This document shows positions 350 to 6,986 of a stretch of 47,037 nucleotides of DNA, in pieces. The stretch lies in the IMG/VR virus record IMGVR_UViG_3300012008_000008, positions 1-47,037 of that record, one strand, 5' to 3'. The position numbers were made by a program, and so were the translations under genes. Numbering within the stretch: the first letter of the stretch is position 1; each line of letters starts with the position of its first letter. A model generated the notes under the pieces. That model was not told the DNA's origin, ran no database searches, and saw only the letters and a list, made by a program, of their open reading frames with translations. Source of the DNA: a virus.

Positions 350-495
350 CGTGTATCCTTGCAAGGCCAGAGCAGGTTGTCAACAGTGCGACCGTGCCAG
401 CACTCCGGCGAAGGCGGGGCAGGATACCGCATGACATAGCCGAGTGTGCCAAGCTCAATCCCGATGATGACGAGCACGAGGGTAAGGACTTTCAC
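346..495 (-). CDS. 49-residue membrane-anchored peptide
   Basis: A GTG start at 495 overlaps the exonuclease stop as GTGA, and the stop overlaps the next start as ATGA, so both ends fit the operon pattern. The product begins MKVLTLVLVIIGIELGTLGYVM, a hydrophobic stretch long enough for one membrane span or an uncleaved signal, followed by a short Pro-rich and Cys-containing tail (PAPPSPECWHG). No family recognised. The case rests on tight coupling and the coherent hydrophobic N-terminus. Confidence 0.6.
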   Translation of the reverse strand: MKVLTLVLVIIGIELGTLGYVMRYPAPPSPECWHGRTVDNLLWPCKDTR

Positions 496-1106
496 TGCCA
501 ATGGCTCCAGACTTGCCACGCCTGCGAGATGCAGTCGTAGATCGGCTCGTGCGGCACGCCCGGGATGTCGAGCGCGTGACCGATGAGCACGATGCGCGTC
601 GCTGGCGTTTCTTTCACAAAGGTCCGCATGTCGCGCGGAGCTTGATAGTGCCAGAGATTACCGACGCTGTTGTCGCCGAGTTGATTGTTGAGTTCTTCGA
701 GATTGGATAAATCGAATTGCGTTCCGTTGGCCCAGACGCGAGTGGCGCTCTTGCAGAACATTTTCACCGACTGGCAGACAGCGGCGAGGTTCGTGCGCCC
801 GCCTTCGGCAGTCCAGTGCGCGCTCGCCTCGGGCTTCTGATCCCGCCAGAATTTTTGAGTTCCCTTGCTGACCTCCCGACCGAGCGCGAGTTGCTGCTCA
901 AGATTGGGAAGAATGAGATCGCAAGCACCGAGCACCAACCCGTCAAGCGGGCTCGGGTCAAACTCAATCATACCGACCGACAGGATCAGCGAGTTGTGCT
1001 TGCTGAGCGACATGGTTTCGATATCGATCATCACGTGATCGAATGTATGCGGCGGTGAGACCGGCTCATGGAACGCGGCGAGCGTCGGATCAGAATGGGA
1101 TGTCAT
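492..1106 (-). CDS. DnaQ-fold 3'-5' exonuclease (DEDDh)
   Basis: 204 residues from ATG 1106, preceded by TCTGGAG at good spacing; an upstream ATG at 1151 would run deeper into the neighbour. The DEDDh motifs are visible: Exo I MIDIET with D28 and E30, Exo II ANGTQFDLSNLEELN with D132, and Exo III HEPIYDCISQ with H186 and D191. Layout and length resemble the phage T4 DexA and Rv2179c-like exoribonuclease group, which removes nucleotides from 3' ends using two metal ions. Substrate (DNA or RNA) cannot be told. The gene just upstream ends in an SSB-like tip, and cellular exonucleases of this fold (ExoI) can bind that tip, so a shared role in DNA turnover is plausible but inferred. Confidence 0.85.
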   Translation of the reverse strand: MTSHSDPTLAAFHEPVSPPHTFDHVMIDIETMSLSKHNSLILSVGMIEFDPSPLDGLVLGACDLILPNLEQQLALGREVSKGTQKFWRDQKPEASAHWTAEGGRTNLAAVCQSVKMFCKSATRVWANGTQFDLSNLEELNNQLGDNSVGNLWHYQAPRDMRTFVKETPATRIVLIGHALDIPGVPHEPIYDCISQAWQVWSHWQ

Positions 1107-1479
1107 CGTCGTTCTCCAGAGGCAGCTTAAGCGTTTGATAGAGCGCGGCACGTCGCCGAGCGATTGCGATGCTATGTGGAAAGCCGATTGGCTTCCGCGT
1201 CACATCCACTTGGCAAACCGTATAGCCAGAAAGAAACGCCTTTGTCAACCATCGGCTGATCAAGTGCGGGTTCATCAATTCGATGCCCACGTGTTTCTTT
1301 TTCGACCAGTCGAACGCCAGCGGGCAGGCGAGATAGCCCGGACCGCCGATGTCGTGATCGATCATGAACCGATATGGCCTGTCAGTGAGCGACATGCACT
1401 TGTCGGTCAGCAGCTTCGCGACCGTGATGTCCGGCACGGCTGGCCCGATCTCCAAAAGCATTCGGCTGGCGTTTTTCAT
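1090..1479 (-). CDS. Protein with bacterial SSB-like C-terminal tip
   Basis: 129 residues from ATG 1479, which overlaps the upstream stop as ATGA; an ATG at 1512 gives 11 extra residues but lies well inside the neighbour. The last eight residues are ENDDDIPF. DDDIPF is the conserved tip by which bacterial SSB recruits RecO, PriA, ExoI and HolC. The body does not show an obvious OB fold to my eye and I recognise no other domain. It could be a divergent phage SSB or a protein that docks onto host SSB-binding enzymes. It overlaps the exonuclease start by 17 bases. Confidence 0.75.
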   Translation of the reverse strand: MKNASRMLLEIGPAVPDITVAKLLTDKCMSLTDRPYRFMIDHDIGGPGYLACPLAFDWSKKKHVGIELMNPHLISRWLTKAFLSGYTVCQVDVTRKPIGFPHSIAIARRRAALYQTLKLPLENDDDIPF

Positions 1480-1826
1480 CGCGGTCTCGTGCACGAGGAC
1501 GGAGAACCGCACGAGCCATCACACGTCGAGCACCGCTTCAGCGTGCGCGGATCATAGCCCTTGCGAATGATGTCGGCGACCACGTCGAACGCGTGCGCGA
1601 CGTGCTCCATATCCTGCGCGGCCTTCTCCCACTTCGGCACGACGCGCATATACTTCCTGAATGGTGGCCAGATCGCGCGAATGGTATAGACCCCTTGACC
1701 CCTAAGCTTCGCCGCGCTCTCGCGTGCGATATTGGCGCGCATGGTGACGAGTTGCGCGCATCGCTCGACCTCATCGGCACGGGCGTCACGAAGCTGGCTA
1801 TAGGCATTGGCCTCGGCGTCGTCCAT
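1476..1826 (-). CDS. Hypothetical protein with C-terminal Cys cluster
   Basis: 116 residues from ATG 1826 (MDDAEANAYSQLRDARADEV), which shares one base with the upstream stop (TGATG). The frame is open upstream to 1946, but that would cross the small membrane gene. The N-terminal half is helical and charged; the C-terminus carries CSTCDGSC and a further Cys, a possible small metal site. Not recognised. Confidence 0.65.
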   Translation of the reverse strand: MDDAEANAYSQLRDARADEVERCAQLVTMRANIARESAAKLRGQGVYTIRAIWPPFRKYMRVVPKWEKAAQDMEHVAHAFDVVADIIRKGYDPRTLKRCSTCDGSCGSPSSCTRPR

Positions 1827-6226: not shown

Positions 6227-6531
6227 CCCATCGCGAGAAGAGCCTGACCCCGTGGATACTGCCGGACGGCTTCGTGCCAACGTTCCTATCGCCCAGCGTC
6301 TACGACGCGGCGGCGGCGCAGGGCTGCGACATGAAATGGTTCGTGCGACAGGAGCCCATCCCGCGCAGCGAGCGCTTCCCCGGCATCCCCGGGAGCCTCA
6401 CGCCAGACCCGGCGCACACCACGAGGCGCGGCAACCCTAAGAAGCACCGCGATGATCGCGGATGCAGCGGCATGTGCATGCTCGGCCTCGGCGGCAAGTG
6501 CGTGGCGTGCAGCGAGGATGACATGACATGA
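6223..6531 (+). CDS. Small Cys-rich C-terminus hypothetical protein
   Basis: 102 residues from ATG 6223 (ATGA overlap). Polar and Pro-rich, with a C-terminal cluster CSGMCMLGLGGKCVACSED holding four Cys in C-x3-C and C-x2-C spacing, a likely zinc site. Not recognised. Confidence 0.65.
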   Translation: MTHREKSLTPWILPDGFVPTFLSPSVYDAAAAQGCDMKWFVRQEPIPRSERFPGIPGSLTPDPAHTTRRGNPKKHRDDRGCSGMCMLGLGGKCVACSEDDMT

Positions 6532-6714
6532 GCACCCGGCCCCTGCAACCATCCGACAAGTATCTCGGCGACGGCCTCTATGCCACGCACGACGGATTTC
6601 AATTCGAAATCCTTCGCGCACAACGGCCTCGCGAAAACGAACCGCGTGTTCATGGAGCCGGACGTGCTGTCCGCCTTCCTGCGCTACGTCAAGGAAGTGG
6701 AGACAAGCGCATGA
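6528..6714 (+). CDS. Small phage protein, frame-disrupted
   Basis: The start (ATG 6528) overlaps the previous stop as ATGA and the first frame reads YLGDGLYATHDGFQFEI, a family I recognise from rhizobial phages and genomes. Its usual end, TNRVFMEPDVLSAFLRYVKEV, is in the +1 frame and stops at 6712-6714, where the TGA overlaps the next gene's ATG. Removing one base near 6610-6616 (ATCCTTC) joins the halves. Either a sequence error or a real frameshift; without it the first frame runs on to 6986. Confidence 0.6.
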
Positions 6715-6986
6715 CTGGAAGACCATCAAACCAAGACCGACAGGAAGCAATCGAGTTCGGGTTCAAGACCTACACGGGCGCGACGCACGTGAAGTGTGGC
6801 ACCAACATCCGCTACACCAAGGGCGGCAGTTGCGTGCACTGTGCGCGCGTGATCGCGACCGAGCAGCGGGAAGCGCGCAAGTATCTGCTCTCAAGCGGTG
6901 CACTTGACAAGCCCGAGGAAATGGTTTTAGAAGAGACGGATGACGCCGAAGCCCGCAGTCAGGCAGCGGTTGACGATATGATGTGA
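6711..6986 (+). CDS. Small zinc-finger protein
   Basis: 91 residues from ATG 6711, coupled by ATGA to the +1-frame end of the previous gene. Residues about 20-42 read TYTGATHVKCGTNIRYTKGG then CVHC, the C-x-n-RY-x-n-C-x2-C finger common beside phage HNH nucleases. The C-terminal third is acidic. It carries no HNH motif itself. DNA binding is likely; role unknown. Confidence 0.6.
   Translation: MTGRPSNQDRQEAIEFGFKTYTGATHVKCGTNIRYTKGGSCVHCARVIATEQREARKYLLSSGALDKPEEMVLEETDDAEARSQAAVDDMM

Follow-up and report, generated by a model that had tools for sequence, protein, structure and literature searches.

A phage protein family carries the C-terminal tip of bacterial SSB on a body without detectable SSB similarity and may act as a docking adaptor

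Introduction

Bacterial DNA repair and replication have their main docking hub in the C-terminal tip of SSB, which is also a drug target. What, then, is the same tip doing at the end of a phage protein that does not look like an SSB? The question is raised by a gene in the window, as we call the whole stretch of 47,037 nucleotides analysed here (IMG/VR record IMGVR_UViG_3300012008_000008), a 47-kb virus record whose large terminase is closest to that of Roseobacter phage RDJL3 (56.5% identity). Its product, hereafter the tip protein, offers a natural competitor or adaptor for the SSB docking hub and a direct way to learn which SSB partners matter to phages. The locus has the following features:

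1090..1479, minus strand: tip protein gene; 129 aa, ATG start, ending LPLENDDDIPF and then stop
1093..1110, minus strand: codons of the DDDIPF tip (GAC G/AT GAC ATC CCA TTC TGA)
492..1103, minus strand: exonuclease, next gene downstream (PF16473 Rv2179c-like / phrog_255)
1476..1820 (start approximate), minus strand: upstream syntenic small gene (MDDAEANAYSQLRDARADEVERCAQL...), an ORF read by eye

Results

The tip and the protein that bears it

The first-pass annotation had read the C-terminus as the exact tip of bacterial SSB and the remainder as unlike SSB. Both readings stand: positions 1479..1090 of the minus strand translate to a protein ending ENDDDIPF, and at the level of sequence its similarity to SSB is undetectable. 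The tip protein matched no Pfam or PHROG family, its family profile had no match among PDB chains by sequence, and Pfam SSB gave no match at E ≤ 1 in any of the four family members scanned. An alternative GTG start upstream, at 1512, would lengthen the protein to 140 aa.

The occurrence of the tip at the very end of the protein is more than chance. Among 5603 ORFs from seven related records (stop-to-stop, at least 50 aa), DIPF-type ends were limited to the tip protein family and a single HNH family; the only exceptions, ending in DDLPL and PEMPL, are weak matches attributable to chance. Five cultured phages, with 2674 ORFs between them, yielded one DIPF-type end, carried by a protein related to that HNH nuclease.

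A family of nine

A pattern search with the window protein as sole query retrieved no relatives, and tblastn of the tip protein in cultured phages gave one weak match only, covering 33%. The route to the family was a search of IMG/VR loci for the neighbouring exonuclease: every close locus had an upstream ORF ending in DDIPF. Three loci (L007, L012 and L014) were gained by profile searches, and two more (L168 and L176) by a search with the exonuclease profile, a family member ending in DDDIPF lying just upstream in both. Since these last two were reached via the exonuclease alone, the tip played no part in their selection. Eight further members are thus known from IMG/VR phage contigs, each sharing 35–50% identity with the window protein; in GTDB genomes, two scans failed to detect any.

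The DDIPF ending is encoded in all nine members, and a check for homologues lacking the tip found none. One member, at L012:3995-4388, has an in-frame TAG where its homologues read on, and a frameshift cuts the end off from the body; in the other frame the conserved tail survives intact, reading ETDDDIPF. The break is either a sequencing error or a mark of a decayed gene.

Selection acts on the tip peptide

Some members have the next gene's start codon inside their tip codons, so the tip is conceivable as a by-product: the acidic tail might be kept only because its codons hold that start. Indeed, GATGA lies within the Asp codons in all nine loci, giving an ATGA overlap. However, Ile, Pro and Phe are invariant as well, the exonuclease of L012 apparently begins further downstream, and the tip is followed by a different gene in L002 and L004. 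In the frame test across the nine loci, the 15 bases coding for DDIPF have four variable sites, all at codon position 3, and all four synonymous codons are represented at the proline; in the +1 frame, the same sites produce H/L/R/P, T/I and S/F changes. Variation confined to third positions in the tip frame, with amino acids changing in the overlapping one, indicates that the peptide is selected and not the overlapping exonuclease start. The codons thus show conservation of the tip by peptide-level selection across the nine members, and we rejected the explanation by mere overlap, which we now regard as hardly credible.

The neighbouring exonuclease

The gene next door, annotated at first pass as a DEDDh exonuclease, is one: it matches PF16473 (E = 2e-22, 80 bits, cut-off 27) and phrog_255 (E = 7e-37), a DEDDh-type family, and has no match in the PDB by sequence. 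Its first in-frame ATG, at 1103, lies within the tip codons; a longer form starting with GTG at 1151 is possible. On the other side of the tip gene, an ORF similar to the small upstream gene of the window is present in L002, L003 and L004, as judged by eye without alignment. At L002:3391-3774, a lipoprotein-like gene (MISLSKIAMIALAALSLASC...) begins inside the tip codons, taking the place of the exonuclease.

It had been proposed that the tip tethers this exonuclease, bringing it to whatever the body targets, as SSB does with ExoI. In each of the nine loci, the tip gene lies beside the exonuclease gene or close to it, and their reading frames overlap in several. On the other hand, small genes intervene in L002 and L004, the synteny extends to the whole small-gene block, the nuclease consists of one domain of some 200 aa, and two loci with distant exonuclease homologues (L177 and L178) have no tip protein nearby. 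We therefore see no specific tie between the two proteins; gene order is the sole basis of the tether, which we consider improbable.

The body: predicted structure and charge

AlphaFold2 models built with seven and nine sequences have the same secondary structure, H-H-E-E-E-H-E-E-H, with mean pLDDT values of 86.8 and 85.8 and last residues of low confidence. The tip is thus predicted to sit on a disordered tail below a confidently modelled α/β body. Neither model has a clear structural relative: Foldseek against the PDB and viral models returned nothing at E ≤ 0.001. The best VIA-align Z-scores were 3.4 and 4.4 and belong to widespread α/β sandwiches, with ferredoxin-like, RbcS-like and RRM-like domains among the matches listed. 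Without the tail, the bodies have a pI of 8.9–10.8 and a charge of about +2 to +8, the L002 member reaching only about +2.

These properties bear on the possibility that the tip protein serves the phage as an SSB of its own, non-canonical in fold, its basic body coating single-stranded DNA and its tip working as in SSB. The layout of a basic body followed by an acidic tip is that of SSB, and the modelled strand order, E-E-E-H-E-E, is also the order of OB folds. Structure prediction, suggested at first pass as a check for an OB fold, thus gave a compatible strand order. No OB domain was recognised among the matches listed (Z ≤ 4.4), which by appearance are ferredoxin-type or RbcS-type sandwiches, but an OB fold is still conceivable. 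A sequence match to SSB is lacking, too.

The search for a genuine SSB in the same phages is relevant here. No SSB above the cut-off was present in any of the records checked: PF00436 had no match in the window record, and DUF669 was not found in the seven records tested. A weak SSB match in G001 was rejected, as it scored 13 bits against a cut-off of 26 and the translated ORF does not look like an SSB. A family A DNA polymerase is encoded in six of eight records, none of that family being seen in the window record. The presence of a phage DNA polymerase while PF00436 and DUF669 were not found speaks for a substitute SSB. The records are likely to be incomplete, and an SSB-like protein from a different family might lie outside them. 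Taking both sides together, we find it unlikely that the tip protein is an SSB in its own right.

Other phage proteins with SSB-like tips

Five of these phages also encode an HNH-type nuclease, unrelated to the tip protein, that likewise ends in an SSB-like tip. Its ends are SDIPF in G002, EDIPF in G003, G007 and L168, and ADVPY in G005. The tipped HNH nuclease loci (ends EDIPF, SDIPF or ADVPY) include:

L014:~6430-6813: tipped HNH nuclease
L168:7415-7939: tipped HNH nuclease
L003:7368-7985: tipped HNH nuclease
G003:C1:38708-39301: tipped HNH nuclease
G005:C1:35538-35996: tipped HNH nuclease

The gene is absent from the window record. A distant relative in the cultured Bradyrhizobium phage OP596612 ends in EEIPF; HNH relatives of Microcystis and Methanosarcina viruses carry no such tip.

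A scan of viral contigs for DDDIPF followed by a stop turned up at least 80 proteins no shorter than 45 aa. Among the matches listed, about 21 match SSB profiles strongly and 13 more weakly, and many others look OB-like; some of the SSB-profile matches may stem from the tails alone, and the counts are not frequencies. The matches listed also include SF2 helicase-like proteins of about 560–620 aa (L084, L107, L112 and L120), phrog_1811 proteins of 73–75 aa (L053, L072, L080 and L118) and a 392-aa ORF (L119) that belongs to the phage DNA polymerase processivity factor family phrog_947 and ends in IEDDDIPF. Helicases, a clamp and phrog_1811 proteins with DDDIPF ends mean that such tips recur on non-SSB phage proteins. 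We found no description of a non-SSB phage protein bearing an SSB tip in the open-access literature. A broader reading is conceivable, although we hold it to be doubtful: these phages may run a private tag system, in which the host SSB tip would be carried independently by several unrelated proteins, the basic tip protein and the HNH nuclease among them; a borrowed docking code, and not an SSB, would then steer host or phage partners to phage DNA.

Discussion

Every one of the nine family members retains the tail; the phage has thus probably taken over a docking signal of its host. Isolated SSB tip peptides are enough to bind E. coli RecO, PriA, chi and PriC (PMC7145534), which makes binding of the tip protein to such partners plausible. 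In phages themselves, the binding of Sak4 to SSB-covered DNA needs the last six residues of the cognate phage SSB (PMC5928155). Given these precedents and a conserved, free tip, the tip protein should be able to dock in pockets of this kind.

What such docking would achieve can be read in two ways. Our preferred reading, held tentatively, is that the tip protein is an adaptor, a surrogate SSB tail through which SSB-tip-binding proteins would be brought to phage DNA. We infer that the body would associate with nucleic acid or with a phage replication or recombination complex, and that the tip would dock into the SSB-tip pockets of host RecO, PriA, chi, RecQ, ExoI and similar proteins; the phage might thereby bring these partners to its own DNA independently of host SSB. 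This adaptor role is suggested by the DDIPF end in nine of nine members, the third-position-only variation, the basic body and the disordered tail in two AlphaFold2 models. It is also consistent with the lack of an SSB above the cut-off, the family A DNA polymerase in six of eight records, the tipped HNH nuclease, and the occurrence of DDDIPF elsewhere on phage replication proteins—SSBs, OB-like proteins, helicases and a processivity factor. Against it, a basic charge says little about DNA binding, the L002 member being only about +2, the fold of the body gives no functional hint, and the probably incomplete records may conceal an SSB-like protein of another family.

Alternatively, the tip protein could be a decoy: by filling the SSB-tip pockets of ExoI, RecQ, RecO, RecG and other repair enzymes of the host, it would block them and thereby shield phage DNA or bring host repair to a halt. 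An exact tip that is identical in nine members of a small protein with a short tail would suit this purpose, as would the binding of several partners by tip peptides alone. However, a large conserved basic body is superfluous for a pure decoy, yet many of its positions are conserved. Moreover, one tip probably binds only modestly, and a decoy would then need high expression. We consider a decoy unlikely, if a better candidate than a non-canonical SSB, and rank the adaptor above these two as well as above the exonuclease tether.

Whichever role applies, the tip protein may also bear on defence, given that the Retron-Eco8 defence system recognises phage SSBs (PMC12887533).

Comparison with known systems

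The DDDIPF-tipped SF2 helicases and the phrog_947 and phrog_1811 proteins are, like the tip protein, phage proteins that carry the tip without detectable relation to SSB, and their bodies are unrelated to its own. The Rv2179c-like / phrog_255 phage exonucleases are the family of the neighbouring gene and not of the tip protein. Among phage SSBs with SSB-like tips, that of HK620 has the tail NDYPPF and acts on Sak4 (PMC5928155). Like the tip protein, it is phage-encoded with an SSB-type tip, and the tip of HK620 SSB has been shown to recruit a phage recombination protein; however, HK620 SSB is a true SSB, whereas the tip protein is without SSB similarity. Bacterial SSB itself differs from the tip protein in two respects: the latter has, by Pfam, no SSB domain and carries an α/β body of unknown type, and its linker spans about 10 residues, whereas that of bacterial SSB is long and disordered. 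The ends are nevertheless alike: both have a preceding acidic run and an extreme C-terminal position on a flexible tail (predicted for the tip protein), and the last six residues are identical to those of the E. coli SSB C-terminus (...PMDFDDDIPF).
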